From the IMG/VR virus record IMGVR_UViG_3300028025_000985, positions 1 to 23,639 of that record: a DNA stretch of 23,639 bases; one strand, 5' to 3'. This DNA is from a virus. The notes below the pieces were generated by a model. That model worked only from the letters and a program-made list of their open reading frames with translations. It was not told where the DNA came from and ran no database searches. The first letter of the stretch is position 1; every line of letters begins with the position of its first letter. This document shows positions 184-23,639 of this stretch, one piece after another. The position numbers and the translations under genes were made by a program.

Positions 184-840
184 TTACCAGTCTGTATTTG
201 TTGCAGACGAGGTGCTTGGACCATCAAAGCCCAAATAGAATGCTTCCTGTTCAGCATAAGGAATCTTCTTGAGTGCTGCCTCTAGTGGGAATGGCTCTGT
301 GCCAGACCAATCAAAAGGCTCCTTATCTGGTGCAGATGGAATGAGTGTGTAACTTGTTTCAGTTCCCTGACCGTTACGCTTTACCTTCCATACAAGGTTT
401 GAGATGCTCCCTGTTTCAAGAGCATACTCACGAATTGTGTTAAATGCAGATTGCTTGCTAACACCCATTGACCAAATAGCCACATACGGTGCTTCAATGC
501 CATCATCTACAAGTACGTTGCAATAGAAACGAAGACGACCACGCCATCCAGCCTTTGGATCCTTGCGGTGCATTTCTTCCGCCCAGTCACGACCTTCTGA
601 TTCCATTGTATCTACAGCCTTACGCTTGTAGTCCTTTGGATTTGTGTGTTCCTTAACAACTAGTGCAAGTCCACGACCTTCGTTATAATTTGCTGAGTCT
701 TCATCTAGTTCTTCAATAAAGCGAATCTTTACTGATTGACCATCGGCAAGTTTAAGCCACTTAACCTTTGGTGAGTTTTCGTCATACTTTGGCTTGTCAA
801 GCAGGGCATTGATATTCTTAAGTCCCTTTACTACGCTCAT
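184..840 (-). CDS. Single-stranded DNA-binding protein, gp32-like (probable)
   Basis: A 218-residue soluble protein with no membrane segment, expected to coat ssDNA at the replication fork. The N-terminus (MSVVKGLKNINALLDKP) is followed by a strand-rich stretch around residues 24-45 (KWLKLADGQSVKIRFIEEL). A second strand-rich region at about 100-170 includes RGRLRFYCNVLV and YVAIWSMGVSKQSAF. This layout resembles the OB-fold ssDNA-binding proteins annotated beside primase and helicase genes in many phages. The C-terminus is Ser/Thr-rich and ends in Asp-Trp, in place of the acidic DDDIPF-type tip of bacterial SSB. ATG at 838-840 is preceded by AAGGAG at good spacing. The gene has its own promoter-like element in the end of the primase gene and is followed 3 nt later by dnaE. 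Assignment rests on overall pattern and neighbours, not on a diagnostic motif. Confidence 0.66.
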   Translation of the reverse strand: MSVVKGLKNINALLDKPKYDENSPKVKWLKLADGQSVKIRFIEELDEDSANYNEGRGLALVVKEHTNPKDYKRKAVDTMESEGRDWAEEMHRKDPKAGWRGRLRFYCNVLVDDGIEAPYVAIWSMGVSKQSAFNTIREYALETGSISNLVWKVKRNGQGTETSYTLIPSAPDKEPFDWSGTEPFPLEAALKKIPYAEQEAFYLGFDGPSTSSATNTDW

Positions 841-864
841 ATTTTCTCCTTCGTGTTGTTTATA

Positions 865-1788
865 TTAGTTTAGCATAGACGAGATAGATTTGTCAAACTG
901 GAACTCTATGCTCCTGATTGCGCTATCATCCATATCGCCAATGTCTTTGTATTTTTTATCTATGGTAACTACGCTGACTAGAGATCCAAGTTTTTCAATT
1001 AACTTATCTTTCATAATAGCGCCAGCCTCGTCATTGTCTGCAACAAGTACAACGTTATTGAAGTACTTTTCTAATAGTTTAATCTGCGATGCAGAAACAT
1101 TAGCACCCAGTGTTGCAACTGCTGGGAAACCTACTTGGTCTAAGCGGATAGCATCAAATGATGATTCCACTACATATATAATACTAGAAGTCTTAACTCT
1201 ATGCAAGTTAAAAAGTATCTTGGACTTTGGTAGCCCAGGTGTGTTCTTAAATTCTTTTCCTTCAACAGATCTTCCAACAAAACCAATTGTCATTCCGTCT
1301 GGAGAGTGAACTGGTATAGTGACCATATCTTGTTTTTCTGAATACCCAAGAGAAAACTTTTTTACTGAGTCTTCTGTGATATATCTGCCAGCGTAATATC
1401 TCATTGCTCTTGGTGACTCAAGTGCTTGATTATTCAAACGTTTAATAAGAACCTCGTCGTATTGCACAAAGTCAGGTGCTGCATACATAGCCTTATTGAC
1501 AGCAATCTCAATATTCGTCTCTGTCTCTTTACTTTTAATGTAACGAGCAGTTTCAAAGTATGATCTTCCAGTTGTAAACATTATGAACTCTTCTAGATTC
1601 TTAGTTGTTTGACAACCAAAGCAAAAGAAAAGACCGCTATCCTTTGCAACCTCACCTGCTGGAGTTCTACTATTGTTGTGATATGGGCAATAAACAATAA
1701 AGTCATTGCCAAACTCTGCTTCAATTTCAATACCAGAGCCATTAAGAACTCTACGAATTTGCTCTTCGCTATAAAGATTACTTGCCAT
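865..1788 (-). CDS. DnaG-type DNA primase, short form (CHC2 zinc finger plus TOPRIM)
   Basis: A 307-residue primase that would make RNA primers for lagging-strand synthesis. The zinc finger lies at about residues 34-59: CPYH then FFCFGC, i.e. C34, H37, C56, C59, the CHC2 pattern. The catalytic TOPRIM fold is at roughly 200-255: YVVESSFDAI provides the conserved Glu, TLGAN follows, and VLVADNDEAG provides the acidic metal-binding DxD pair. It is about half the length of bacterial DnaG and ends soon after TOPRIM, so it lacks the C-terminal helicase-binding domain. I chose ATG at 1786-1788 over an upstream TTG (1824) because AAGGA sits about 8 nt before the ATG and the TTG has no ribosome site. 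This start gives an 11-nt overlap with the helicase gene and implies coupling. No helicase domain is fused to it. Confidence 0.93.
   Translation of the reverse strand: MASNLYSEEQIRRVLNGSGIEIEAEFGNDFIVYCPYHNNSRTPAGEVAKDSGLFFCFGCQTTKNLEEFIMFTTGRSYFETARYIKSKETETNIEIAVNKAMYAAPDFVQYDEVLIKRLNNQALESPRAMRYYAGRYITEDSVKKFSLGYSEKQDMVTIPVHSPDGMTIGFVGRSVEGKEFKNTPGLPKSKILFNLHRVKTSSIIYVVESSFDAIRLDQVGFPAVATLGANVSASQIKLLEKYFNNVVLVADNDEAGAIMKDKLIEKLGSLVSVVTIDKKYKDIGDMDDSAIRSIEFQFDKSISSMLN
867..896 (-). promoter_or_regulatory. Probable sigma70-type promoter for the ssDNA-binding protein gene
   Basis: On the minus strand a perfect -35 TTGACA (896-891) is followed by an 18-nt spacer ending in TATGC and then TAAACT (872-867) as -10. 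TG one base before the -10 makes it an extended -10. The element lies in the last codons of the primase gene, and the last base of the -10 is the first base of its stop codon. There are 26 nt between the -10 and the ATG at 840, giving a short leader with an AAGGAG ribosome site. It would let SSB and polymerase be expressed apart from the upstream operon. Confidence 0.66.
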
Positions 1789-3004
1789 CTTCAAAGTCCT
1801 TATATCTGTAGTAGCCCTTATCAAAGTCTACTTGCACTAAGAAGTCACCCATAAAACCATTACGGTTCTTTCTAAATACACATTCAATAATATCACTGTT
1901 TGTTCCACGACCTAGAGCAAGAAGCCAGTCAGCATCATAAGAGATCTGTCTAGACCATGCTGTTTGACCAAGTGTTGGAGGTGTGCTTAAATCCTTTACA
2001 TCGTCAGGCGTAGCAGATGAGATAGCGATAATAGGCACTTCTTCGCTAATAGACATAAGTTTAAGTTCACGTGAAAGATTCTTCATCTTTACCGTTTCAT
2101 TATCAGCCTTTTGATTTGGACTCATCAACTGCAAGTAGTCAACCACAACAAAGTCAGGCTTGTACTGGTCAATCTTTCCACGAATAACAGAAGGTGTAAC
2201 TTCTCCACCTGAATCATTAGAAATGATATGGAACTCTGGGCGACCTTCAACCTTGTTAGCATGCCACTTACGAAGCATGTCAATCTCTATCTCGCCGTTT
2301 GACAACTTACGATGTGACCAAAGACCCTCACCCATAATAGCAAATACACGGTTACGAACTTCTGTCTCAGACATTTCAAGAGAGATAATCATTGGGGATT
2401 TGCCTTGCTTCCATGCCTGCACTGCAAAGTAAAGTGCCATCCATGACTTACCAATACCTGGATAAGCAAGGAATACTCCAAGTTGTCCTGGCATAATTCC
2501 TGCAGGAAGATAGTTGTCAAACCCTGGAAGACCTGTCTTAATACCTACTGCGCCAAGTTCATTTTGCTTTGCTACTCTTTCATAGTATGCAACTGCATCT
2601 TCAAGATCTGTTGCATCAATATCACGAATAGCAGCAGTATTCTTTTTTAGTTCTGAAGTTTTTGTAATAAGATGCTCAAGGGCTTCTGTTCCATTACCAG
2701 TTTGAACATCCCCAGCAGCACTACGAAGAATATCTTTTAGGCTATCGTTAAGGTATTCTGTCTGCAACTCTGCAAGATGATGCTTGGTTGAGCCAATACC
2801 TGTTACTGGTTCAAAGTCACGAAACTTCTCTCTAACTAAATCTGCTGGAGGAAGTGCCTGATTGTTTTCAGAATATAAACGAATGAAGTTCCAGATATCG
2901 TTATGAGTTCTTAGAAGTGTCTCTACATTTGCCTGAAGTAGTACGTGAATCTGCTTATCTTCCAATACTGCTGAGATTACTTTTGCCTCTGTATTGTTAT
3001 TCAC
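1778..3004 (-). CDS. dnaB: Replicative DNA helicase, DnaB family
   Basis: A 408-residue RecA-fold helicase. The N-terminal ~130 residues are helical, as in the DnaB collar domain. The ATPase domain then shows Walker A at about 181-187 (YPGIGKS), the DnaB-typical SLEMS at 208-212, Walker B VVVDYLQLM with D289, a sensor-like IIAISS, and a C-terminal KNRNG motif matching the KxRNG signature of DnaB. The first Gly of the classic Walker A is Ala (A180), a tolerated variation. The start is GTG at 3002-3004 with AAAGGAG 7 nt upstream, overlapping the 102-residue gene by 8 nt. It would unwind DNA at the fork together with the primase, which overlaps its 3' end. DnaB (versus RadA- or UvsX-like proteins) is supported by the SLEM and KNRNG motifs. 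Confidence 0.93.
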   Translation of the reverse strand: MNNNTEAKVISAVLEDKQIHVLLQANVETLLRTHNDIWNFIRLYSENNQALPPADLVREKFRDFEPVTGIGSTKHHLAELQTEYLNDSLKDILRSAAGDVQTGNGTEALEHLITKTSELKKNTAAIRDIDATDLEDAVAYYERVAKQNELGAVGIKTGLPGFDNYLPAGIMPGQLGVFLAYPGIGKSWMALYFAVQAWKQGKSPMIISLEMSETEVRNRVFAIMGEGLWSHRKLSNGEIEIDMLRKWHANKVEGRPEFHIISNDSGGEVTPSVIRGKIDQYKPDFVVVDYLQLMSPNQKADNETVKMKNLSRELKLMSISEEVPIIAISSATPDDVKDLSTPPTLGQTAWSRQISYDADWLLALGRGTNSDIIECVFRKNRNGFMGDFLVQVDFDKGYYRYKDFEDGK

Positions 3005-4228: not shown

Positions 4229-4669
4229 TTAGTTTGGTATGCCGATAGCAATAATGTTAACGCCAACGGTAGCAGTACCAGCAGTATTAAATCTAACCAC
4301 TCCATCTACTCTTGTAGATGTTACGCTTGTTAAGGTAACTGTAACATTCTGTCCTGCTGCTGTTCCATCAACGTTAATTGGTGTTGCCGTAATAATTGGA
4401 GCATATTTAAAATCACTATAAGAAAAGTCAAACTTGACTTCCTGTGCAACACCAACATCAGTCTTAGTAGTAACTTCTTTATATCCTCCAACAAATTTTG
4501 CTTCAGAGGTTTTAACATTTTGATTACCAGCAGTTCCTGCAGATACTGTTGTTGTCTTGAATGTTGTAGACGATACCTGAGAAGACAGGTCGTTTACTGC
4601 TTTTGCTAGTTCGTAGATGTATGTAACATCTATCGGTTGCCCTCTTTCGGGTAGTGGTACTTTTGCCAT
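4229..4669 (-). CDS. Tail-tip or fibre-type structural protein (putative)
   Basis: 146 residues in two parts. An N-terminal region (about 1-38) has a short amphipathic helix (YIYELAKAVNDLSSQVSS) that could trimerise or attach to the tail. A strand-rich C-terminal domain is low in charge and high in Thr, Val and Gly (TATPINVDGTAAGQNVTVTL, VGVNIIAIGIPN), as is common in phage fibre tips. There are no catalytic motifs or cysteines. ATG at 4667-4669 has GGAGAG upstream, and the gene follows the 166-residue gene by 17 nt. It is the last gene of the tail block before the zinc ribbon gene. Function is inferred from composition and position. Confidence 0.7.
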   Translation of the reverse strand: MAKVPLPERGQPIDVTYIYELAKAVNDLSSQVSSTTFKTTTVSAGTAGNQNVKTSEAKFVGGYKEVTTKTDVGVAQEVKFDFSYSDFKYAPIITATPINVDGTAAGQNVTVTLTSVTSTRVDGVVRFNTAGTATVGVNIIAIGIPN

Positions 4670-4687
4670 TATCTCTCCATTATATCA

Positions 4688-11833: not shown

Positions 11834-12520
11834 TTAAACCTCTTCCAGCGTTACTGAAATATTCCAAAGATCATGGTTGCTTCCACCACGCTTTACAACA
11901 GTATAGTTAAAGTCTGCAATATAAACCTGAATAACTTGATTATATTGACCAAGATGTTTATACGCAGCGTTTGCATCTTCTACTGTTGGTCCAAAATTGC
12001 TATACTTATCATATGCTAGATACATCCAGAATGGTCCTGTGTGTGTTTCATACCAATCTAGAATGTCTACTCCACCAGCACCACCGTCTGCAGTATATTC
12101 ATTTGCTGCAGAATATGTTGTACCTTCTGCATTTCTAGTAGCATTTTGTAGTGATAAAGATGGTTTACCGTTCTCATCAAATTCTGGCGACTGGCTATGA
12201 GATCTTGAAGGAAGATTATCCCAAGACCAAGAAATTTCAAGTTTATCTGCAATATGGTATGAGCGCATGCGACCATTAATTGTTCTTTGGCGTTGCTCTA
12301 GTCTTTTAGGGGTAAATCTTATCTCACTACGATTATGGTCAGATAATACTAGGAACTGATCTACTAGAGATGCGTTTGTGCCTGCCTCAATCTCTGCCCC
12401 AATTTCATACCCTGTAGGCACGTAGAGGCCTTCTGAGAGCGTTCCTGCGTTATTAGACCAAAGGATACCCTGCGGTCTCTGATACCGTTTTCTACCCGTC
12501 ATATAGTCTGCTGTTGCCAT
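11834..12520 (-). CDS. Minor tail protein in the distal-tail (Dit) position
   Basis: 228 residues, directly downstream of the tape measure gene with a one-base stop/start overlap (TAATG) and one nt before the large hub-type gene. In siphoviruses this slot encodes the distal tail protein that joins the tube to the tip. The protein is soluble and strand-rich with a hydrophilic middle (PSRSHSQSPEFDENGKPSLS). The C-terminus (VIQVYIADFNYTVVKRG, then LWNISVTLEEV) resembles the final strands of Dit-like proteins, which commonly end in a statement of the form 'W-x-V-x-LxEV'. No cysteines or catalytic motifs are present. The Dit label is inferred mainly from synteny; the assignment as a tail protein is more secure. 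Confidence 0.77.
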   Translation of the reverse strand: MATADYMTGRKRYQRPQGILWSNNAGTLSEGLYVPTGYEIGAEIEAGTNASLVDQFLVLSDHNRSEIRFTPKRLEQRQRTINGRMRSYHIADKLEISWSWDNLPSRSHSQSPEFDENGKPSLSLQNATRNAEGTTYSAANEYTADGGAGGVDILDWYETHTGPFWMYLAYDKYSNFGPTVEDANAAYKHLGQYNQVIQVYIADFNYTVVKRGGSNHDLWNISVTLEEV

Positions 12521-15500
12521 TATCTCTGCCCTCTAAGTCTTTGTGAATCAATATACTTAATCTCTGCCATTACTACCTTGGCAATGTCATCTGCACTAGC
12601 ACTTGTATTATTTACGCTAATTCCTACATTGTAATTATACACCCTGCTGGAGTTATCCGCTACCATTGTTGAAGATCCTGCTCCAACACTAGTAGTATTA
12701 TTATCCATTGCAGAATATGTTGGAGCCTGAAGAGACTTGTATGTTCCATTATTTAATGACTGAAGCATTGCTCCATATTGATCAGCAACATTTTTCTTTA
12801 CTATAAACTCACCAGGTGTCAGCATAGCAGGAACTGTGTCTGTTCCTCTTGCAACAAATCCACCTTCTGCATAGTATCCCATGCTCTTTAAAATTGATTG
12901 CTGTGAAGAAAGGGACATACTTCTTAGCCAGTCATTTTTGCCAAGACCTTCTGCAAATGATCCCTTTCTATTTGGATCTGTATTTGTTTGTCTTTTCTTT
13001 GCGTCTTCTTCAGCAATTTTTGCAAGTCTTTCTTTTTCTGCCTTTTCAGCAGCGGCTTTAGCCTTTGCTTCTGCATCAGGATCTGGGTATGTTCCTATCT
13101 TTAATCCAGCATCTGTAATTCCCTTTGACACTGTTCCCCATGCAGTAGCAACTCCTGTAACTGATGTTGCCATTTTATCAATGTCTAGTATCTGTGCATC
13201 ATAAGCATCATTGAGTGCAGCAACTGCATCCTTAACAGTCCCCCATTCTTCAGCAGTCATTCCCTGAAGTTCAACATACTTTAATTGTTTTTCAACAGAG
13301 AGTTCGTGTGCAGCAACTAACTTATTTCTTGCTTCAATCTCTTTCTCAAGAGGGGCAATAAGTGTTTCTTGAACTCTTGCAATCTCATCAGTTAACTGCT
13401 TTCTTGTATAGTCTTTTCCATTAATCTTTGTTGTAAGATTATCAATTTCTTTTTGTCTAGCAATTTCCATTGCAGATCTTTGTTCATCAAGAGCATCTCC
13501 AGCACTTCTTGATGCAACCTCTGCCTGCTGTGCAGAATATTCTGCTGCTGCCTGTGCTGCTGCAGAAATATCTCCTTGAGTAAGAGCATCAGCAAGTGTT
13601 AGTTGGTTTTGCTGCTGTGCTGCAATGTCTTCATTAATAGAAAGAACATCGTCTAAAGCCTTAGCCTGAGCATCAATTAACTTAATCTTATCATCATACT
13701 TATCATTGACAGATGTTTCAAGTTTCTCAATAGCAGAAAGCCCATCGTTGTAATCGTCAATCTGGTCTTGATAGGTTTGCTGAAGCGCTTCCTTCTCCTT
13801 AGTAACAAGGTTATACTGTTCAACTGACATTTTATTTGCTGTTCTAAAGGCAGACTGTGATGCCAAGTTAATTCTTGCTGCTTCTGCTGCAAACTTTTGA
13901 TCTAATTTTGTTGACTTAGATTCTTGCATTTGTTGTAATTCAAACAATACTTTCTTATAGTCTTCTGCAGACTTAATAAGTTGAGGGAACTCATCTTTTA
14001 TTTTACCAGTAGAGGAAAGCACTCCTTCTACCCATTCTGATTTAGAAATTATTTGAAGGATTGTTTCATATGCAATACCCTCATTTTTTAATTTCTTAAA
14101 TGCATCTATTTGCATTTGAATCTTATTTGTTTCTTGTGCCTGATTTACTACTCCCTCTTTGGCTCTTAGCGCTGCACCCTGCTTATTTATTTCAATTAAG
14201 CCTGCAAGTTCATCCTTTGAGTATTGAACTCCATTTGCAATATCAGCAACAAATGACTGGTTTTTCATAAGATCGTTTGTTTCTGCTATAGTAAAGCCAT
14301 ACTCTCTAGATAATGATATTAGTGAGTAGTATGCATTAACTCTGTCACGAATTTCATCAACAGCCTTCTTCTCATCCTCAATATATTCACCAATAGTTGC
14401 TGTTCTAAATGCACTATTAATATTAATAAAGTCTTCTGTAAGTCCTGAGATTCTTCCATCTTTGCCAACCTTAAACAATGTCTTTGACCACAAGACAAAT
14501 TGTTCTGGATCCATGTTTACTAGAATTTCACGGAAGTCATCTGACAAACCTCTAATGTTTCCGTCAAGAGCAAGTTTATCAATTGCTTGAATGGCGCCTA
14601 GTTGTTTATCAAGCGACTTATTGCTTGCAACACTGCCTCCACCTTTACCACCAAGATCTCCGCCAAGGAACTTCTTAATAGACTTTAGAGGATTTAGTGC
14701 ATCAATTGAAGAATCCTTTACAATCTTTAGTCTTTGAGCAAGATCCATTAAGAATGAATCATCTCTCTTTGTCTTGTTAGCATTTGCATTATTATTGCTA
14801 TTATTGTTAGTAGTTGTTGGTGTTGCAACGCCAAATATCTGTGTTCTAAACTTGTCCATTGCTGCTTTTCTTGCTGCCTCAATATTTTTTGGATCAGTTG
14901 TAAACATTTCACGATCAAGTTTTTGTTGTCTATTAAAGGTTCTCATGCTTTCTTTGCTTCCAAACATCTGCTGTCCAGCATACTTTGGATTTGCCTTTTC
15001 AAACGCCGCATCTAGTTCTGTCTTTAACATAGCATCAAAACTATCGCTAACTTCAATAGATGCCATTGTAAAGATTGCCTGGAACTGTAACTCTTTAGGA
15101 AGTTTTTCTATTTCCTTCCAGTCTCTGATAGCAGAGTCTAGAGTTAAGTTCTTTCCTGGGCCACCACCTTCTTGTTGCATTTTGATTAATGCCTTAAGAT
15201 CTACTTGGCCATTAGGGAATTGCTTTTTAAGAGCAGCAATCTCTTTACCTGTTTTCTTAAGGTTTGCAATATCATTACTATCTGTTTCAAGACTTAGGTC
15301 AATACCAATAAAGTCTGGAATTTTTGCAAGTTCTTCAATTGCTGAATATGTTGCATCTGAATCTGCTTTATTCATTTGCTTAACTGCTATCACTAAATTT
15401 CTTTGATTAGTTTCATCTGGAATCAGTGTCAGGAGTGTAGATAGTCTCTGAAGTCCCTCGGTGCCCTGAACAGAAACAATTGACTGAAGATTTTTAGTAA

Positions 15501-18500
15501 TATCTCCACCTGTAGCAGTTAAAGTCTTAAGCATAATAGAGGCTTCATTTGGTGTTAAAACATCAGATGTTACTAATGTTGATATCTGAAGTGTTACTTC
15601 GTCATTACCAATATCATCTAACTCACTCTGCAAAGCACTAGCCTGTGCTTTAAGTGCTGCATTATCTTTAAACTTTTCTTGCATTGCAGTAGAGAATGCT
15701 TCCATGTACTTATCACGAACTTGTCCACGACCAGAACCAAGTGGGCTTAGTCTTTCTCCTATAGTCGGACCACTTACACCTTGATAACTAGTGACAGCGC
15801 TCTGTAGTATATTCCCTTGAGTTTCTCTTAGTGTTTTAAGTCCAGAAGTCTTTTTATCTTGTAATGCTAAAATCTCTTGGTCTACAGCAGCACGCTCTTG
15901 TTCTGTTTTTAGCGTCTTCTTCTTAAGTTCTAGATTTGCAATTGCTGTATCATACTGTGAAGTTAATGCATCAATACTTCCCTGTGACGCTGCAAGGTTT
16001 TGAGATACTATGCCCTGAACAATACCAGCAGCCTTACCTATGGCAGCCTTTTCTTTGCCCTTCTGCCACATTCTAATTCCTGTTTCAATTCCACCGAATA
16101 CAACTGTAGAGATTGCTAAACCAACTAATCCAGGAATTGCTCCAGCACCAGTTGCTGCAGTTGCTCCTGAAGCAAGTTGTGTTCCAACTCTAACATTTCT
16201 TGCAATTGTAAGTGCCTTGCTTACCTTTGATGCATCTGATGCAACCTTTGCAACCTTTGCTTCCGCAGCAGCGATTGCACCAGCATTTGATATTGCACCC
16301 ATCATTGCAGTAGCCTGCATACCTGCACGTGCTGCTACATAACCTCCACCAATTGCTCCTACTCCAAGTTGACCAGCCTCGCCTAGATCTATTCCACGTT
16401 GTCTGTCTGCAACCTTGTTCAGATTTCCAAGAGCAGCATCCTGCAGACGGGTATTGGTTGCTATTAGGTCAAGTTGAACCTTTAGTCCATTCGTGGTGAG
16501 GTTCTCTCCATTAGGACCAAGAAGTTCAATTAATCTTCCTCTTACATCAAGTTCAAGTTTTGCGTCTTTGAGGTTTCTAGTAAGTGCAACCGCAATTGAT
16601 TCTGCCTGTACCACAGTTAGAACTCCCTGAGAAACAGCAGTTCCAAGTTGGCTTACTAGTGAGTCAACTGCAGGACCAGTTCCAAAATCTTTTACTGTTT
16701 GTTCAAAAGATGTTTTAAGATTTTTACCAAAATCGCTTTGCTCTAGAACATTATTTCCAAACTCCATGCTGACTGGAACAATGTCCATATTTCTTGCTTT
16801 TCTTTTTGCATCAGCAATCTGTGTAACTGAAACAGTATTAGTGATCTTTCCAAGTTCTTCAAGTCTGCTGGTTGTCATCGTCATAGACTTTGCTTGTTTT
16901 TCACCTTCAATAATATTTTTCTTAATTGTTGAAGACTGCATCTTAAATATAGCAGCCAAGCCAGCAGCAGATGCTAGTAGAAGTTTTAATGGGCTATTAA
17001 GCATTGGAAGAATCATAGGTAGCATAGATGCTCCCATGATCGCTGTCATATTCTTTGCTACCCAACTTTCTTCATTCTTTTGAGCATATGCACTAGCAAC
17101 CATAGGAACCATCATGGCAGCCATGCCAACACCCATCATTCTTTGGCTGGTCTGCATTCTCTTGTCTGTACGCATATTAGTGCGTTCTTCTACAGTTGCT
17201 TTTCTTAATTGTTTTGTTTCTTGGTCAACTATTTGATCTGGTACCCGACCATAACCACTCATAAATCCACGGAAACCACGTGTCTTATCTGCTTCTGCAA
17301 AACTGGTAGATAGGTTTTGAGTTCTAGTATTTAGAACCTTAACCCCGCCTGCTGTCTTAACTGCTGTCTTTGCAAGTGCTTCCATTCCACGAACAGATGC
17401 TGCTGTTGCTGCAGCCATTCTTGCTGCTGCTCTTTCTGCAGCCCTTGAGACTATAGGTGCTGCATAACGTTGAGCACGATTTATTCTTCCTCGCCAGTTA
17501 GGTCTGACTGGTGATGGTCCATCAAAGTTTTGATTAGGAAGTGGACGGGGGACTCCAGTTTTCTTTCCAGTTATGTGACCTGGAATCTTATCATCAATAA
17601 TTCCGTCAACAAGCGGTGCATACTTTTGAGCCATGTCTTTTGGAATAACCGCTTCTCCAGGTGTGAGCATTGCAGGAACAGTATCCTTGTTTCCTGTTCC
17701 AGGAACAGAGAACACTCCCTTATTGTAATAATAAGGAGTTGTATTAGCATGACCAGACTGACGCTCTCTTTGGTCTCTATCTTGTTTTTGCTTAAGAATT
17801 TGTGCTGCAGATAAAGGCTTCTTAACTTGTGGAACTACAGATGAGTGGACTGCATGATACTCTGCCCAGTTAACGTTTTTACCTTCTTCAAGGCGTAGGA
17901 TCATTCGGTTATAAATTTCTTGTTCTTTTGGATCAAGACCCATTCCCGCAATTGATTTTCTCAATCTAGGAAGTGTTTCTTCAATTTCTCTTATCATTGC
18001 TGCATGGTATTGAGTAGGAGTCATGCTTCTAGCAACATCTAATGTTGACTCTGCAAAGAATCTTTTTGCTCCTCCCTTTACACCAAGAAGGTTAATCTTT
18101 GCCTGATCTGCCATTGACGGCATGCTGTCTGCATAAACTCTTACGCCCGATGCTCTCTCAAAGACTCCCGCTGTTCCAACGTCTGCAAGAACATTTCCTG
18201 AAAGATTAGACATTTGCAAGTCTTTGTCTCCACGAAGTGATGATGCCACTAATTGTTTAATATACTCATCCTTTGTAAACTTACCAGTCATGCTTGCAAA
18301 TTGCTCTTCAACTGGAGATTCTAATACAAGAAGCCTTCTCTTCTTTTGTGGATCAGTTGGATCAATCATTACTTTAATTGTCTGCTTTGGTGCTTGTAGG
18401 CCATGAGCCTCTCTTGCAATCGTCGTTGCTCTCATTTCTGCAAGGGCTGCAACCTCATCTAGAACTGGCTTTACAAATACAGACTCTCCTGCACCATTCT

Positions 18501-21500
18501 TATAAATTCCTCCAACACCAGGCACTGGGAATGAGTGTCCAATAGTTGCAGAGACTTGCTCTCCGTATGTAGTTGTTGGCAATCCAGCAAAACGACTCTT
18601 CTCTACACCAGCACTGATCTGCTGCATTAATGACTGCTGATCTCTCTTTACGGCAACCTGCTTTGCAGTCAATGGCATACCTAGGAATAGTGGATTCTTT
18701 GGTACTGCAGCAATTCCTGCCATGTACCCTGGAACTCCTGGTAGAGAACTAATATCTTCCTTTGTCATACCAGAACTCTTTAGTAGTGAGTACTGGCTAG
18801 ACTTTCTTCCAAAGTTTTTTCCACCTGCATCATAGAATCCAGTAGCAAGTCTTCTTTCAAATATTGCCTGAGCAACCTTTTGAGATCCAGATTTATTCTG
18901 CATTGCAGAAAGGGCTGCAACCATTGTTTCTGCCTGGTCTCTTCTTGCTACGTGAATTCCACCAATAATTCCCTTGTTTTCTTCAAAGAACTTATTTAAG
19001 AATGTGTGCTCTTCAAAAATGTTAGATGGTCTATTTCTTGTTGTTGCATTAAATAATTGAGAGTCTGCCTTTTGTCTATGGCTAAATGCTGGAGCATAAC
19101 TAAAATCTTCTTTTCCTCTTCTAGAACCTCTTGATACTGTAATAAGATCATCTAGGGTTAATCCATAGGCATTTGGTCCGCCTGCAATGCTCTTAAGATA
19201 TGAAATCTCTGCTTCATGCTCTGCAACAAGTGCTTGATACTCTGGGCTATTCTTGTAAAGTTTTCTGCGTGATGTAACTTCTTTTGGAACGGCTCTAGTT
19301 CTTGTTCCTTGCCCATACGGAGTAATGCTCTTAAGTCTTGATGGAGTAAGGACATTGCCAACCAGTTTTCTGTCTGGCTTAGATATTGCAGCCCGAACAG
19401 TTCTTAGAATATCATCTGGAGAATCTCCTCTTGCACGTTGGAACTCTTCATTCTTAATAAGTTCTTTCTTAAAACTTGCAACCTTCTTTTGATGTACAAA
19501 AAATGTTACTCCTCCACCAAGATCAACAGGAACAAGACCCTTTGCATTTGGTGTTCCAATCTTTAGTGCAGACAGAGTTGAAAATTGCTGCTCAACTAGT
19601 GATAGAGGATTTGCAACTCGTCCACCCATTGCTCTTGCTGCGCCAAAACTTAGTTTGCCAACAACTGTTGGTTCAGCAGCCATCATTGGGAATACTGAAC
19701 GAATACCATACATATGTCCTGGAACCGAGTCTCCAACAATTGCATTAATCAAACCACCATGCTTTTCAACCATTCCCTTTGGAATAACTGCTTCACCTGG
19801 TGTAAGCATTGCTGGTACTGTATCTGTGTTGCCTGTACCTGGTACATATGACACACCCTTGTTATAACGCTTTGGAGCAATGCCACCACCCATAGGGGCT
19901 TTTGGCATAAACATTCCAGGATTATTCTTAGAGAATGTCATCATTGCAGCATTTGCTTGCTGATAAACAGCAGTCAAAGCCTTAAGACTTGATGCTTCAA
20001 GTACATATGCTGCAGAAAGGTTCTGGTGACTTGTTGTCATTGCATTAGTTACTGCTGTGTTCTCAAGTTCTTCTTGAGTCATATAGCGTGTATTTAATGC
20101 TGCATCTTTAGTTCCGTATGCTAATCTTTGATACCCTTGGCGAACAAGGTTAAACATTTTCATAAGGTTTGCAATACCATTGGCTACAAGACCAACAGTC
20201 ATAAGAACTACTGGACCAATACCAGCAACAGCACCAATAATGATACCAACAATCTTCTTAAAGCCTTCTGGCATTTCGTTAAACTTGTTAAACAATTTAA
20301 CAAAGAATTCAATAACTGGTGTGAGGATCTTAGCAAAGAGTTCACCAATTGGAGCAATAGAAGCCTTAAGTTTTTCAATCTGAGATTGCATCTTATTCAT
20401 TGCAGAATTTTCTTGAGTCTTCATTTCTCGCTGACTTAGGATTGCAAGTTCTTCGGCTGATGCAACCGACAATTTCATAACTCTGTTTGCTTGAGTTCCT
20501 TCTTTTGTAATGTTATTAAACATTGCAGAAAGTCTTGCAAACTGATACTTACCAAAAATCTTTTCAATAATCTGACCACGCTGAAGATCGTTGAGTGTAC
20601 TAAGAGAACTTGCAAACTGCATAACAGTTGCTTTAAGGTCTCCAGCATTACTTTCAACAATTGCTTTAAGGTTAATTCCAAGTGCGTTTGTTGCCTTTAC
20701 AGCAGCAGTAGATGGGTTAATTAAAGATGCAAGACCAGATTTAAGTGCGTTTGCGCCTTGTGCTGCGCTTACGCCTCCTTCTTTCATTGCTGTAAGGAAT
20801 ACAGTTAAGTCTTTAACATCTCCACCAAGTTGTTGAATAATTGGACCAACTCTTGGAATGGCTTCTGTCATATCCTCAAGGGTGAGGACTGTCTGGTTTT
20901 CAACTGCGTTCAGGAAGTCAATATTCTTTCCAAGTTCTGCTGCAGTAATTCCAAAAGCATTCTTAAGTGCAACAATTGTTTCTAGTGATTTATCTTGAGC
21001 AATGCCACCAAGAACTGCAAGTTTGTTTGCTTGTCTTACTACTTCTTCTAAGTCTTTTCCAGCGTTACCCGCTGCTGCAGCATCTGCTGCTGTCTTGATA
21101 GTCTCAGATACCTTAAGACCATACTTTGTGTACTCATCTGCAATCTTCTGCATATTTTTGAGGGCAGTTTCTGTTTCGCCCTGTGTTGTAAAAATTTCTC
21201 CATAAACCTTCTTAAAACGAATAGCCTGAGTTTCAATCTCTTTAAAACTCTTGATTGCTGAAGCAGCAAACATAGCCAGAGGTATTGTAAAACCAACCAT
21301 CAACTGACGGCCAGCCCACTGGGTATTCTTACCAAAGTTTAGAAGTCGTACAGAACCATCATTAAGAAGTTTATTCATTATCTGCTGACGCTGAATAACC
21401 ATCTGCATTCTTGTTAGTTGATCATTATAATTTAACTTCTTTGGGGTCATACGCATTGCATTTAGCGCACCCTGGGCATCTTTACCCAATCCTACATATT

Positions 21501-21879
21501 GAGTCTGTAGAGTCTTTACTCTCTTTTGTACGAGACTGCTTACTGTCTCAAATTCTTTACCGAAAAATCTTCCAAAAGTTCTGGAAGAGGCCATACTATA
21601 TCTATAGTATTCTCTAAGCGATAACTTGCCAGCATCAAGTCTTCTTGAGAACTGATCAACAGATGTAGACATTTTTGCTGTTGAAGCAGTAAAGGCTCCA
21701 GTAGCATTTACGTTATGAAGAAGTGATCTTGTGAAGTCTGCCTGTGCTGCTGCTGCTGCACGTGTTCCAACAACCATGGAACGGTTAAATGCGGATAACT
21801 GCTTATCCAGTCCACGAAGTGCAGACATGGCTTGAACAGTATCAATATTTATAAAAATATTGCTATTTATATCCGCCAT
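12520..21879 (-). CDS. Tail tape measure protein (3119 residues) with embedded kinase-like region
   Basis: The largest gene in the window. It sets tail length and probably enters the host envelope during DNA ejection. Residues ~185-570 form a TP901-1-type tape measure core (alpha-helical, PRVGPIIQQLGGD, GGVSAAQGANALKSGLASL) ending in a strongly hydrophobic segment at about 537-570. Further hydrophobic segments lie at about 1580-1600, 1608-1643, 1834-1871 and 1911-1935. Residues ~2050-2950 are mostly charged helices likely to form coiled coils. A motif centred on DTVPAMLTPGE occurs three times (about 679-703, 1392-1416, 3011-3031), and residues ~1110-1290 look kinase-like. ATG at 21877-21879 has only a weak site close by; an AGGAG lies 15 nt upstream. 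At the usual ~0.15 nm per residue the full length would predict a tail near 470 nm, less if the inserted region does not span the tube. Confidence 0.96.
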   Translation of the reverse strand: MADINSNIFINIDTVQAMSALRGLDKQLSAFNRSMVVGTRAAAAAQADFTRSLLHNVNATGAFTASTAKMSTSVDQFSRRLDAGKLSLREYYRYSMASSRTFGRFFGKEFETVSSLVQKRVKTLQTQYVGLGKDAQGALNAMRMTPKKLNYNDQLTRMQMVIQRQQIMNKLLNDGSVRLLNFGKNTQWAGRQLMVGFTIPLAMFAASAIKSFKEIETQAIRFKKVYGEIFTTQGETETALKNMQKIADEYTKYGLKVSETIKTAADAAAAGNAGKDLEEVVRQANKLAVLGGIAQDKSLETIVALKNAFGITAAELGKNIDFLNAVENQTVLTLEDMTEAIPRVGPIIQQLGGDVKDLTVFLTAMKEGGVSAAQGANALKSGLASLINPSTAAVKATNALGINLKAIVESNAGDLKATVMQFASSLSTLNDLQRGQIIEKIFGKYQFARLSAMFNNITKEGTQANRVMKLSVASAEELAILSQREMKTQENSAMNKMQSQIEKLKASIAPIGELFAKILTPVIEFFVKLFNKFNEMPEGFKKIVGIIIGAVAGIGPVVLMTVGLVANGIANLMKMFNLVRQGYQRLAYGTKDAALNTRYMTQEELENTAVTNAMTTSHQNLSAAYVLEASSLKALTAVYQQANAAMMTFSKNNPGMFMPKAPMGGGIAPKRYNKGVSYVPGTGNTDTVPAMLTPGEAVIPKGMVEKHGGLINAIVGDSVPGHMYGIRSVFPMMAAEPTVVGKLSFGAARAMGGRVANPLSLVEQQFSTLSALKIGTPNAKGLVPVDLGGGVTFFVHQKKVASFKKELIKNEEFQRARGDSPDDILRTVRAAISKPDRKLVGNVLTPSRLKSITPYGQGTRTRAVPKEVTSRRKLYKNSPEYQALVAEHEAEISYLKSIAGGPNAYGLTLDDLITVSRGSRRGKEDFSYAPAFSHRQKADSQLFNATTRNRPSNIFEEHTFLNKFFEENKGIIGGIHVARRDQAETMVAALSAMQNKSGSQKVAQAIFERRLATGFYDAGGKNFGRKSSQYSLLKSSGMTKEDISSLPGVPGYMAGIAAVPKNPLFLGMPLTAKQVAVKRDQQSLMQQISAGVEKSRFAGLPTTTYGEQVSATIGHSFPVPGVGGIYKNGAGESVFVKPVLDEVAALAEMRATTIAREAHGLQAPKQTIKVMIDPTDPQKKRRLLVLESPVEEQFASMTGKFTKDEYIKQLVASSLRGDKDLQMSNLSGNVLADVGTAGVFERASGVRVYADSMPSMADQAKINLLGVKGGAKRFFAESTLDVARSMTPTQYHAAMIREIEETLPRLRKSIAGMGLDPKEQEIYNRMILRLEEGKNVNWAEYHAVHSSVVPQVKKPLSAAQILKQKQDRDQRERQSGHANTTPYYYNKGVFSVPGTGNKDTVPAMLTPGEAVIPKDMAQKYAPLVDGIIDDKIPGHITGKKTGVPRPLPNQNFDGPSPVRPNWRGRINRAQRYAAPIVSRAAERAAARMAAATAASVRGMEALAKTAVKTAGGVKVLNTRTQNLSTSFAEADKTRGFRGFMSGYGRVPDQIVDQETKQLRKATVEERTNMRTDKRMQTSQRMMGVGMAAMMVPMVASAYAQKNEESWVAKNMTAIMGASMLPMILPMLNSPLKLLLASAAGLAAIFKMQSSTIKKNIIEGEKQAKSMTMTTSRLEELGKITNTVSVTQIADAKRKARNMDIVPVSMEFGNNVLEQSDFGKNLKTSFEQTVKDFGTGPAVDSLVSQLGTAVSQGVLTVVQAESIAVALTRNLKDAKLELDVRGRLIELLGPNGENLTTNGLKVQLDLIATNTRLQDAALGNLNKVADRQRGIDLGEAGQLGVGAIGGGYVAARAGMQATAMMGAISNAGAIAAAEAKVAKVASDASKVSKALTIARNVRVGTQLASGATAATGAGAIPGLVGLAISTVVFGGIETGIRMWQKGKEKAAIGKAAGIVQGIVSQNLAASQGSIDALTSQYDTAIANLELKKKTLKTEQERAAVDQEILALQDKKTSGLKTLRETQGNILQSAVTSYQGVSGPTIGERLSPLGSGRGQVRDKYMEAFSTAMQEKFKDNAALKAQASALQSELDDIGNDEVTLQISTLVTSDVLTPNEASIMLKTLTATGGDITKNLQSIVSVQGTEGLQRLSTLLTLIPDETNQRNLVIAVKQMNKADSDATYSAIEELAKIPDFIGIDLSLETDSNDIANLKKTGKEIAALKKQFPNGQVDLKALIKMQQEGGGPGKNLTLDSAIRDWKEIEKLPKELQFQAIFTMASIEVSDSFDAMLKTELDAAFEKANPKYAGQQMFGSKESMRTFNRQQKLDREMFTTDPKNIEAARKAAMDKFRTQIFGVATPTTTNNNSNNNANANKTKRDDSFLMDLAQRLKIVKDSSIDALNPLKSIKKFLGGDLGGKGGGSVASNKSLDKQLGAIQAIDKLALDGNIRGLSDDFREILVNMDPEQFVLWSKTLFKVGKDGRISGLTEDFININSAFRTATIGEYIEDEKKAVDEIRDRVNAYYSLISLSREYGFTIAETNDLMKNQSFVADIANGVQYSKDELAGLIEINKQGAALRAKEGVVNQAQETNKIQMQIDAFKKLKNEGIAYETILQIISKSEWVEGVLSSTGKIKDEFPQLIKSAEDYKKVLFELQQMQESKSTKLDQKFAAEAARINLASQSAFRTANKMSVEQYNLVTKEKEALQQTYQDQIDDYNDGLSAIEKLETSVNDKYDDKIKLIDAQAKALDDVLSINEDIAAQQQNQLTLADALTQGDISAAAQAAAEYSAQQAEVASRSAGDALDEQRSAMEIARQKEIDNLTTKINGKDYTRKQLTDEIARVQETLIAPLEKEIEARNKLVAAHELSVEKQLKYVELQGMTAEEWGTVKDAVAALNDAYDAQILDIDKMATSVTGVATAWGTVSKGITDAGLKIGTYPDPDAEAKAKAAAEKAEKERLAKIAEEDAKKRQTNTDPNRKGSFAEGLGKNDWLRSMSLSSQQSILKSMGYYAEGGFVARGTDTVPAMLTPGEFIVKKNVADQYGAMLQSLNNGTYKSLQAPTYSAMDNNTTSVGAGSSTMVADNSSRVYNYNVGISVNNTSASADDIAKVVMAEIKYIDSQRLRGQR
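12787..12849 (-). repeat. TPGE motif copy 3, near the tape measure C-terminus
   Basis: Encodes residues 3011-3031: RGTDTVPAMLTPGEFIVKK. It is preceded by YYAEGGFVA, comparable to the YNKGV lead-in of the other copies. It shares the DTVPAMLTPGE core but has FIVKK where the others have AVIPK. This form is common near the ends of tape measure proteins. Confidence 0.85.
17632..17706 (-). repeat. TPGE motif copy 2 in the tape measure protein
   Basis: Encodes residues 1392-1416: VPGTGNKDTVPAML then TPGEAVIPKDM. It is preceded by YNKGVFS, parallel to YNKGVSY before copy 1, and followed by a similar block ending PGH (KIPGHITG versus SVPGHMYG). The repeat unit is therefore about 50 residues. It lies just after the kinase-like region. 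Confidence 0.88.
18010..18552 (-). other. Kinase-fold (HipA/PI-kinase-like) domain inside the tape measure protein
   Basis: Residues ~1110-1290 of the tape measure protein. The order of elements is that of an atypical protein-kinase fold. A Gly-rich strand pair GGIYKNGAGESVFVKP supplies K1137 as candidate ATP-binding Lys. A helix with E1142/E1148 leads into ATTIAREAHGLQAP, followed by a strand and hinge (RLLVLESPVEE). Then come the block DLQMSNLSGNVL (D1220, N1225, N1229) and ADVGTAGVFERASG (D1233), close to the 'D-x-GG-x-L-x-FRA-x-G' ending of the kinase-like domains found in some phage head and MuF-type proteins. Assigned by eye. The catalytic loop is short and activity cannot be judged. 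Confidence 0.52.
19771..19845 (-). repeat. TPGE motif copy 1 in the tape measure protein
   Basis: Encodes residues 679-703: VPGTGNTDTVPAML then TPGEAVIPKGM. It matches copy 2 at 23 of 25 residues, but many third codon positions differ, so it is not a recent DNA duplication. It lies just before the inserted kinase-like region. Confidence 0.88.
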
Positions 21880-21909: not shown

Positions 21910-22236
21910 TTATTCTTGTGCTGCGAGAGCAAGCAAGGCTGAATCAGTCAAGTTAATACCTGATGCTGCTTCAATGATTTCGTACACTGTAGGTAGATCA
22001 AGTAGATCTTCCAACTTCTCAACGTCTTCTGCCAATTCTGGCTTGTACTGCTTCATTGCGATTTGTACGCATTCAACAAGTACATCCATTGACTTATCAT
22101 TATCTGCCTGGACTGCTCCAAGGCCTTCAAATGACTTCATAAACGGACGAAGAAGTGATACCTTCAACGGTCGTACTTTAACCTTTGTGCCGTCAATTAA
22201 TGTGACGACTTTCTCTTCATGGACAGTTGTTGCCAT
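21910..22236 (-). CDS. Tail assembly chaperone, short form (gpG-like)
   Basis: 108 residues, between the long chaperone and the tape measure gene. It aligns along its whole length with residues 1-95 of the long form: about 43 identities in 95 columns by hand with one gap, including PLK, VAMKQY-like IAMKQY, and LPTVYEI versus MPTVYSI. In lambda-type phages the short product (gpG) coats the tape measure protein while the tail is built. ATG at 22234-22236 has a near-perfect AGGAGGGG site and a strong promoter-like element 26 nt upstream. Reading past its stop in the -1 or +1 frame hits a stop within about 20 codons, so no frameshifted gpT partner follows it. Confidence 0.84.
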   Translation of the reverse strand: MATTVHEEKVVTLIDGTKVKVRPLKVSLLRPFMKSFEGLGAVQADNDKSMDVLVECVQIAMKQYKPELAEDVEKLEDLLDLPTVYEIIEAASGINLTDSALLALAAQE

Positions 22237-22244
22237 TTACCCCT

Positions 22245-22254
22245 CCTAATTAGG
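22245..22254. promoter_or_regulatory. 10-bp perfect palindrome in the leader of the short chaperone gene
   Basis: CCTAATTAGG lies about where transcription from the upstream promoter should start and shares its last bases with the ribosome binding site. It could be a small operator half-site pair, but 10 bp is short enough to occur by chance. Confidence 0.3.
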
Positions 22255-22262
22255 TTAAGTTA

Positions 22263-22292
22263 ATTATAGCATAAGAGAGGGATCTCTGTCAT
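22263..22292 (-). promoter_or_regulatory. Probable sigma70-type promoter for short chaperone and tape measure genes
   Basis: The minus strand carries ATGACA (22292-22287, 5 of 6 to the -35 consensus), an 18-nt spacer ending TATGC, and a perfect TATAAT (22268-22263) with TG extension. It overlaps the last codons and stop of the long chaperone gene. There are 26 nt from the -10 to the ATG at 22236, identical to the element before the SSB gene. Confidence 0.7.
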
Positions 22293-22998
22293 CTTCATAA
22301 TCTAGTCCAAGCCCAATTCCGAAGCCTAATTGCTTTGCTTTTGGACCTTGTAGTGACAGCACATCATCTGAATTATCAGCCTGACCTTTAGAAAATACTC
22401 TAGCCTTCATGTCTTCCCACTCTTTCTGGCCTCTATCTTTACCAGACTCCTTATCTAAATCTACACCCTGCATTGCTGCTAAAAATTTCTTTTCTTGATA
22501 ATCTAAATCTCTCATTACTTCTAATGTAGACATGAGTTCTGGCATAGATAGTGATCTTTCTAATTCATCATAATCTTTATAAATGCCGAGCAAAAATATT
22601 TCAGATTCCAACTTGGCTAAATCTAAACTCTTCCAAGTAACACCTTCTTTGTCTGCTTTTGATTTTAATGATTTTTCTGCCTGATCTTTAATTGATTCAT
22701 CAGAGTCTTCTTTAACCTTAATGCCAGCAGCAAAGTCTGCTATAGAGTAGACTGTAGGCATATCAAAATTATCCTCAATGTCTTCTACGCTACCAGATAA
22801 CGATGGGTAATACTGTTTCATAGCAACCCTTACGCATTCTGTAATAATATGCAAAGAGTCTTGCTCATTTTGTACAGTCTGCATTCCGTCAAACTTCTCC
22901 ATGAACTCACGAAGATACTTGATCTTTAAAGGTGACATTTCTATATGAATGCCATCAACTGTTTCAACTGTTTTTGTAGAATAAACTATAGTAGCCAT
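22264..22998 (-). CDS. Tail assembly chaperone, long form (gpGT-like) in one reading frame
   Basis: 244 residues from ATG at 22996-22998; this start aligns with the start of the short paralogue (MATIV versus MATTV), unlike a TTG two codons upstream. Residues 1-95 are homologous to the short form. A Lys/Glu/Ser-rich hinge (about 96-120) then leads to a C-terminal domain containing LESEIFLLGIYKDYDELER, SMPELMSTLEV and DLDYQEKKFLAAMQGVDLD. This resembles the T-type extension that most siphoviruses reach only by programmed frameshifting; here no frameshift is needed. The long form would bind the tape measure protein and recruit tail-tube subunits. There is no convincing Shine-Dalgarno, and a -10 element ends only 9 nt before the ATG, so a leaderless mRNA is likely. 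Confidence 0.84.
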   Translation of the reverse strand: MATIVYSTKTVETVDGIHIEMSPLKIKYLREFMEKFDGMQTVQNEQDSLHIITECVRVAMKQYYPSLSGSVEDIEDNFDMPTVYSIADFAAGIKVKEDSDESIKDQAEKSLKSKADKEGVTWKSLDLAKLESEIFLLGIYKDYDELERSLSMPELMSTLEVMRDLDYQEKKFLAAMQGVDLDKESGKDRGQKEWEDMKARVFSKGQADNSDDVLSLQGPKAKQLGFGIGLGLDYEDDRDPSLML

Positions 22999-23007
22999 AT
23001 ACAATCT

Positions 23008-23016
23008 ATTCTAGCA
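23008..23016 (-). promoter_or_regulatory. Extended -10 promoter, probably giving a near-leaderless mRNA
   Basis: The minus strand reads TATGC TAGAAT just downstream of the terminator U-tract. There is TG extension but no recognisable -35, since that position falls in the terminator stem. The -10 ends 9 nt before the ATG at 22998, so transcription would begin 0-4 nt from the start codon. It shares the TATGCTAnAnT core with the other two promoters. Confidence 0.52.
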
Positions 23017-23017
23017 T

Positions 23018-23050
23018 AAAACAACAAAGCCTGCCTCCGAAGAGACAGGC
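23018..23050 (-). terminator. Rho-independent terminator after the major tail protein gene
   Basis: On the minus strand a 9-bp stem, GCCTGTCTC / GAGGCAGGC with one G-U pair, closes a TTCG tetraloop (23029-23050) and is followed by TTTGTTGTTTT (23028-23018). It begins 22 nt after the major tail protein stop codon. It is the only clear terminator in the window and separates the abundant tube protein from the chaperone/tape measure operon. Confidence 0.9.
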
Positions 23051-23072
23051 CTAGTCGCTAATTTATATTAAA

Positions 23073-23639
23073 TTATGAAGCAGGAGTCCAAGTACGATCT
23101 ACGATCTTACCGTATGATCCTGATGCATCTTCTGGAAGAAGACGGAATGAAACTTCAAACATTGATGCTTCATCACGCTTTGCAGATACTGTAACATTTT
23201 CAATTGAAAGTGCACGGTATGCAGAGTAGACACGCTCAATGTAAGCAGACTCAGCACAGTCACCTGTTCCTGGTCCGACTGCTACAATTCCACGCTCAAC
23301 TGGGCATTCACCAAGTTCACCTGCAGAAAGGTTAAGTGCCTGTCCTGCTGATGTTGACTTGTTTCCTGTAAGTTGTGCGTCGCTGTATGCTAGTGAGAGA
23401 AGCAAGTTCTCTAGTGTAGCCTCAGCAAAAGCAGTTGCAAGGTTAACCTGCATTCCCTGCTTGTAAAGTTTTGCAACGTCAAGAATCTGGTCCACTCTAA
23501 CTTCACCGAAGTCAGGTTGGAACTGCAGTTCAAGGCCGTTCATTGTATAACCCACGTTTGTGTATGTTGCGTCATCTGCGAGAGTCTCACGGAATGATTC
23601 GCCTGATACAGCGGTCTCTAGTGTTCCTGGAGTAAGGGT
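23073..23639 (-). CDS. Major tail (tube) protein, 5' end outside the window
   Basis: Open from the window edge to TAA at 23073-23075, giving at least 188 residues; an internal GTG at 23555 is not the start because the frame continues with coding-like sequence (LTPGTLETAVSGESFRETL, then VGYTMNGLELQFQPDFGEV). The mixed alpha/beta pattern with EVRVDQILDVAKLYKQG, helix-forming NLATAFAEATLENLLLSLA and a strand-rich C-terminus (MFEVSFRLLPEDAS, KIVDRTW) suits a tail-tube subunit. Its position immediately before the chaperones and tape measure gene is the canonical one. It is followed by a strong terminator, as expected for a highly expressed structural gene. A sheath protein is unlikely given the length and the absence of any other contractile-tail gene. 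Confidence 0.86.
   Translation of the reverse strand, partial: TLTPGTLETAVSGESFRETLADDATYTNVGYTMNGLELQFQPDFGEVRVDQILDVAKLYKQGMQVNLATAFAEATLENLLLSLAYSDAQLTGNKSTSAGQALNLSAGELGECPVERGIVAVGPGTGDCAESAYIERVYSAYRALSIENVTVSAKRDEASMFEVSFRLLPEDASGSYGKIVDRTWTPAS

Follow-up and report, generated by a model that had tools for sequence, protein, structure and literature searches.

Most long-tailed phages make a short and a long tail assembly chaperone from one gene by ribosomal frameshifting, and this G/GT frameshift is among the most conserved recoding events in tailed phages. In lambda-type systems, the event is a −1 programmed frameshift (Levin 1993; Xu 2004, 2013; reviewed in PMC5009743), and the ratio required in lambda is about 30 G to 1 GT (PMC5009743). 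By analogy with lambda, many copies of G and few of GT would coat the tape measure protein, and T would recruit tail-tube subunits. Some T4-like phages are described as carrying a short chaperone gene and a separate long fusion gene, with no frameshift (Vladimirov, Gautam and Davidson 2022, Virology 566:9-15, as presented in the PRFect paper, PMC10885494). As far as that description goes, the two-gene solution is therefore already known.

The locus described here lies in a window of 23,639 nt (the whole stretch of DNA that was analysed, from virus record IMGVR_UViG_3300028025_000985). It resembles the lambda-type system, which is used by the window's own one-gene relatives, in gene position, in its short/long logic, and in the shared N domain with a T extension. 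In contrast to that system, the two products come from separate genes, a slippery site is absent, T is in frame with an N domain of its own, and the ratio is apparently set at initiation. As in the T4-like phages, so far as that source presents them, a short gene accompanies an in-frame long fusion gene without a frameshift; however, the phage group is a different one (compared by description only), and in the window's clade both frameshifting sisters and the promoter and leader signals of both genes are seen. Since the closest relatives of this clade frameshift, an origin independent of the T4-like locus is likely. The nearest described phages, Stanwilliamsviridae (Streptomyces phages such as Coruscant, Moab, Braelyn, and TunaTartare), share a homologous G (about 38% identical), a homologous T, and the same gene order. 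Their chaperone, however, is a single gene in which T overlaps G in the −1 frame (TunaTartare and Emma1919 carry this as an annotated join), and the overlap starts with CCCAAAT or CCCGGAA.

Tandem chaperone genes in the window

The features of the locus, all on the minus strand, are as follows.
23073–23639 (−), major tail protein gene, the upstream neighbour, with its 5′ end beyond the window; match to phrog_2175 'protein with Ig domain' (4.5e-29)
23027–23052 (−), intrinsic-terminator-like hairpin with a T-rich tail, 3′ of the major tail protein gene and 5′ of the long-gene promoter
23008–23016 (−), extended −10 box of the long gene, TGCTAGAAT, a predicted leaderless promoter 9 nt from the ATG; equivalent in 90/91 relatives
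22264–22998 (−), long tail assembly chaperone gene (GT fusion, 244 aa, ATG start), assigned from BLASTP, PHROG, and the two-gene form in 157/160 relatives
22705–22998 (−), G-like N domain of the long gene, fused in frame to the T-like domain
22291–22608 (−), T-like domain of the long gene, with a T profile match and phrog_10474
22287–22292 (−), −35-like hexamer ATGACA with an 18-nt spacer to the short-gene −10 box; a consensus match only
22263–22271 (−), extended −10 box of the short gene, TGCTATAAT, 26 nt from the ATG; it shares bases with the long gene's TAA stop
22240–22247 (−), Shine-Dalgarno sequence of the short gene, AGGAGGGG; the long gene has none
21910–22236 (−), short tail assembly chaperone gene (G, 108 aa, ATG start), with a T extension absent in every frame
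12520–21879 (−), tape measure protein gene (3119 aa), the downstream neighbour; a match to phrog_25241 tail length tape measure protein covers its C-terminal 126 aa

The chaperone pair is thus flanked by the major tail protein gene and the tape measure gene. The gene order is identical in Stanwilliamsviridae, where the counterpart of the 23073–23639 gene is annotated as major tail protein. By the rule of thumb of 1.5 angstrom of tail length per tape measure residue, the 3119-aa tape measure protein would correspond to a tail of roughly 470 nm, which is very long. Beyond the tail genes, on the same strand at 184–3004 (−), lies a replication module with a DnaB-like helicase, a primase, and a single-strand binding protein. 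A nucleotide search of 13.6 kb of the window against the phage collection gave zero matches. When bacterial genome contigs were scanned with the short protein, no relative was returned, and hence no link to a host or prophage.

An earlier note, made from the letters of the window, had aligned the 108-aa and 244-aa proteins over ~95 residues with ~43 identities. BLASTP reproduced this alignment with 44 identities in 100 columns, one gap, and an E value of 2e-30. The profile phrog_10504 matched the N-termini of both the long and short proteins (8e-17 and 6e-21, respectively), and the match of phrog_10474 was confined to residues 139–226 of the long protein, consistent with the note's reading that the long form runs on in frame into a T-like domain. 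Both families are labelled as of unknown function, yet their members include the G and T portions of proteins annotated as tail assembly chaperones. Searches of Pfam and NCBIfam with both proteins gave nothing useful, and PDB sequence profiles gave chance matches only. The long protein has a G-T architecture, the short protein is G alone, and the two genes are tandem paralogues.

The N-domains of the two proteins were modelled with AlphaFold2 (pLDDT 68.8 and 72.2). Both models had the same order of elements, with strands at residues 9–12 and 18–21 and helices at ~26–41, 45–64, 71–78, and 80–92. The two N-terminal domains, whose possible unrelatedness the earlier note had raised against its own proposal, are thus homologous in sequence and alike in predicted element order. 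The top PDB row for both models was the HK97 gp13 tail assembly chaperone 2ob9, with weak matches that are too low to stand alone (Z 4.3 over 88 aligned residues, rmsd 5.6; Z 4.8 over 86 aligned residues, rmsd 5.5). The matches to viral models included named tail assembly chaperones and, weakly, the GT of phage N15. Taken as a whole, the reading of this locus as encoding the paired tail assembly chaperones of an actinophage-type virus with a long tail, including the duplication and the ratio control described below, is one that we hold with fairly high confidence.

One-gene and two-gene relatives

Two scans of viral contigs yielded 160 first-round related loci, which were read with G and T profiles. 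The order 'G-T | G', with the in-frame long fusion first and the short gene second, was found in 157 of them; in the remaining three, contig ends fall inside the locus. Eight long contigs (58–110 kb) each contained exactly two G matches, which were adjacent, and a third copy was absent. These results indicate that the duplication is fixed in a diverse clade and is not an oddity of one contig. The two-gene arrangement, which is carried by a large group of freshwater phages, recurs far above chance. Locus L151 has a gap of 776 nt between the long and short genes compared with 26–68 nt otherwise, possibly due to an inserted gene. One locus (L234) was considered as a frameshift intermediate of the form G|T|G and was set aside, as its break is a local tandem repeat in a normal G-T|G locus and is probably an assembly error.

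One-gene forms were found in sister lineages. By tblastn, homologous proteins were detected in about 127 Streptomyces phage records, with E values down to 3e-30. All of the records opened were Stanwilliamsviridae with the order major tail protein, chaperone, and tape measure, and their G and T lay in different frames with an overlap of roughly 43–90 nt. Joined products are annotated for the chaperones of TunaTartare, Emma1919, and Francesca, a Rhodococcus phage that is more distant. A freshwater one-gene sister group (L211 and similar), with a −1 overlap, came from a further search that started from a mixed alignment. In both the Stanwilliamsviridae and the freshwater sisters, the homologous T segment lies in the −1 frame of the single G gene. 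Hence, the comparison of one-gene and two-gene forms proposed in the earlier note separated the two-gene relatives from sister lineages that have one gene.

A slippery heptamer, C_CCA_AAC or C_CCA_AAT, was present in 17/17 distinct freshwater one-gene overlaps, and nearly all Streptomyces forms had C_CCA_AAT or C_CCG_GAA at the same LNDP codons. The form C_CCG_GAA was confined to one Streptomyces subfamily (L197–L209 and similar); it is non-canonical, and re-pairing in the A site would be imperfect. Streptomyces phage Faust (L166) has a 60-nt gene annotated at 2091–2150 for what is the T part of its chaperone, probably because the frameshift was unrecognised, and many other Streptomyces phage records list T as a separate 'hypothetical protein'.

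The CCCAAA[C/T] heptamer is missing from both genes of the two-gene clade, and the LNDPN codons of the one-gene forms have become LTDSA in the window. The earlier note had named a slippery site giving GT from the short gene of relatives as evidence that would count against it; such a site exists only where the second gene is absent. Likewise, the lambda-type layout, in which T overlaps the end of G in a different frame and a conserved slippery heptamer is present, was seen only in the one-gene sisters and not in the window. The earlier note also stated that the frames after the short stop close within ~20 codons. The −1 frame around the stop of the window's short gene is closed, and among 92 distinct short-gene tails the median number of open codons in the −1 frame past the G stop was 6, compared with 111 in the freshwater one-gene forms.

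Frameshifting could still be active if the short gene were recoded into T, or if the long gene were recoded to give a short product as in dnaX. A heptamer of the X_XXY_YYZ type does occur in 5/92 distinct short-gene tails, where it is TTTAAA[T/C], and a T- or A-rich heptamer occurs in 32/107 segments of the long-gene linker and T start. However, none of the 92 tails has the ancestral CCCAAA[C/T] that the two-gene clade has lost, and the short gene has no T-coding frame after it into which ribosomes could shift. The heptamers of the long gene show no sequence conservation and are in keeping with AT-rich Phe-Leu/Lys codons. We thus regard continued frameshifting as highly improbable.

Origin of the gene pair

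The earlier note had proposed that gene duplication replaced the frameshift, with the long form first and the short form second. The data support this proposal, as the Streptomyces and Rhodococcus phages examined, which serve as outgroups, are one-gene. In the G tree, the short G proteins formed one clade (100/89) within the freshwater one-gene G, and the GT N-domains formed another clade (99/93) outside it. A single clade of GT and short G was not rejected by the AU test (p=0.156). In the T tree, the freshwater one-gene T domains formed one clade (99/100). Replacement of the frameshift by duplication is therefore supported, and the trees are compatible with more than one branch for it. The freshwater one-gene forms fell inside the two-gene forms in the major-tail-protein tree, in conflict with the G tree, which suggests recombination or module exchange. 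The major-tail-protein tree was hence set aside as a guide to the direction of change, since its conflict with the G tree was read as recombination between modules.

In the simplest model, a unit of −10 box, leader, G, and T would have been duplicated in tandem. The upstream copy would then have been fused to give an in-frame GT, and its leader would have been shortened by about 18 nt including the Shine-Dalgarno sequence, so that the same −10 box became leaderless. The downstream copy would have kept its promoter, leader, and Shine-Dalgarno sequence and lost the slippery site and T. Such a duplication of the whole unit would account for the shared terminator and −10 context.

Start signals and the proposed control of the G:GT ratio

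Shine-Dalgarno duplex energies were calculated for 117 non-redundant two-gene loci. The mean was −2.0 kcal/mol for the long gene and −10.4 kcal/mol for the short gene, compared with −10.6 kcal/mol for the freshwater one-gene G; pairing was weaker for the long gene than for the short gene in 117/117 loci. The short gene carries AGGAGG, like its single-gene sisters, whereas the long gene lacks a Shine-Dalgarno sequence and starts with ATG in all 117 loci. Duplex energies below −8 were found for 6% of background ORFs.

An extended −10 box was present in 90 of the 91 distinct regions upstream of the long gene, and in 83 of them it lay 6–9 nt from the ATG. TGnTATAAT preceded the short-gene ATG in 87/87 regions, with a spacing of 23–30 nt in nearly all, and TGCTATAAT was found 24–30 nt before the freshwater one-gene G in 17/17. 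The corresponding means in shuffled sequences were 3.0, 2.0, and 0.7 for the long gene, the short gene, and the freshwater one-gene G, respectively. Leaderless-type spacing occurred in 2/404 other ORFs of the same loci, a loose control in which ORFs and starts were assigned mechanically. A terminator-like hairpin was located upstream of 96/102 long genes.

In Mycobacterium tuberculosis, the centres of TANNNT boxes lie 7–12 bp upstream of transcript starts, and one gene in four is leaderless (PMC3898074). With a −10 box 6–9 nt from the ATG and no Shine-Dalgarno sequence, the long-gene mRNA should be leaderless, and by the M. tuberculosis spacing, which may not be that of the host, it is predicted to start at most about 3 nt from the ATG. 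In these two properties, the long gene resembles leaderless transcripts described for actinobacteria and for actinophages (PMC3898074, PMC7148126; Cluster O mycobacteriophages, PMC4351075). In seven of the 91 distinct upstream regions the −10 box lies 14–15 nt away and a short leader remains, some with GGGG. GGG or GGGG is found between the −10 box and the long-gene ATG in L096, L238, L248, L251, L140, L158, and L159, perhaps as a re-evolved short leader with a weak Shine-Dalgarno sequence.

On this basis, we propose that GT would be translated from a leaderless mRNA made from its own extended −10 promoter just past the terminator, giving low output, and that the mRNA for G would be leadered, with a strong Shine-Dalgarno sequence, and would be supplied by its own promoter and by readthrough from GT, giving high output. 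Expression signals would thus replace recoding in setting the G:GT stoichiometry. The start signals probably agree in direction with lambda's excess of G over GT, the ratio here being a prediction. In M. smegmatis, leaderless reporters yielded less protein than leadered ones, and translation efficiency was not uniformly lower; in mycobacteria, leaderless mRNAs can equal some leadered mRNAs in translation (PMC7148126). Since such mRNAs are sometimes well translated, low output of the long gene is not guaranteed. Overall, we lean towards the view that an aquatic phage lineage swapped recoding for a leaderless GT and Shine-Dalgarno G pair, in which the mode of initiation fixes the G:GT ratio.

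The TGnTAnAAT before the long gene might instead be a promoter whose mRNA is leadered, or the long protein might be translated mostly from readthrough mRNA, with the ratio arising from promoter strength, terminator leakage, and the missing Shine-Dalgarno sequence. The few relatives with 14–15 nt spacing fit such a scheme, and the transcript starts of the long gene are predictions. However, a 6–9 nt spacing that is kept in 83/91 distinct regions and rare before other ORFs sets the expected start at 0–3 nt from the ATG, so we consider this scheme possible but the less probable one. It is more doubtful that the two proteins have divided roles, with the long protein acting, for example, as a separate initiator or tube factor that does not co-assemble with G, which would make a G:GT ratio meaningless. 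Such a division would suit the GT N-domain, which diverges faster than the short G and forms a strongly supported clade of its own. The mean identity over the same 41 genomes was 73.5% for the short G versus 57.1% for the GT N-domain, a difference that is also expected if G is the abundant coat. Against divided roles, the long and short genes strictly co-occur side by side, the two-gene loci keep the gene order of their one-gene relatives, and G-like core residues are conserved in both proteins.

What is new in this locus is probably how the G:GT ratio is kept, as judged from its signals. No earlier report of a leaderless/leadered pair setting the ratio of two paralogous assembly proteins was found in the literature searched. 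Two-gene chaperones in an actinophage-related lineage, with frameshifting sisters and leaderless/leadered signals, were likewise not found in that literature, which was mostly open-access and is thus weak evidence of absence. The question at stake is whether phages need the frameshift as such or just the ratio that results from it; close sisters that solve the same problem in two ways, together with the strong asymmetry of the two-gene signals, argue that only the ratio matters. The two-gene clade also shows a concrete way in which recoding can disappear, and it suggests that leaderless starts may serve phage assembly genes as a means of keeping output low. Its loci caution phage annotators against imposing a frameshift join where two genes are present.

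The stop codon of the long gene falls inside the short-gene −10 box (ATG CTA TAA T) in the window and in roughly a dozen distinct relatives, so that the promoter and the -Met-Leu C-terminus constrain each other. A second leaderless-type start was noticed elsewhere in the window, where TGATATAAT at 4679–4687 (−) lies 9 nt before the ATG of a 146-aa ORF at 4229–4669 (−). Judging from this gene, leaderless initiation may serve elsewhere in the phage.
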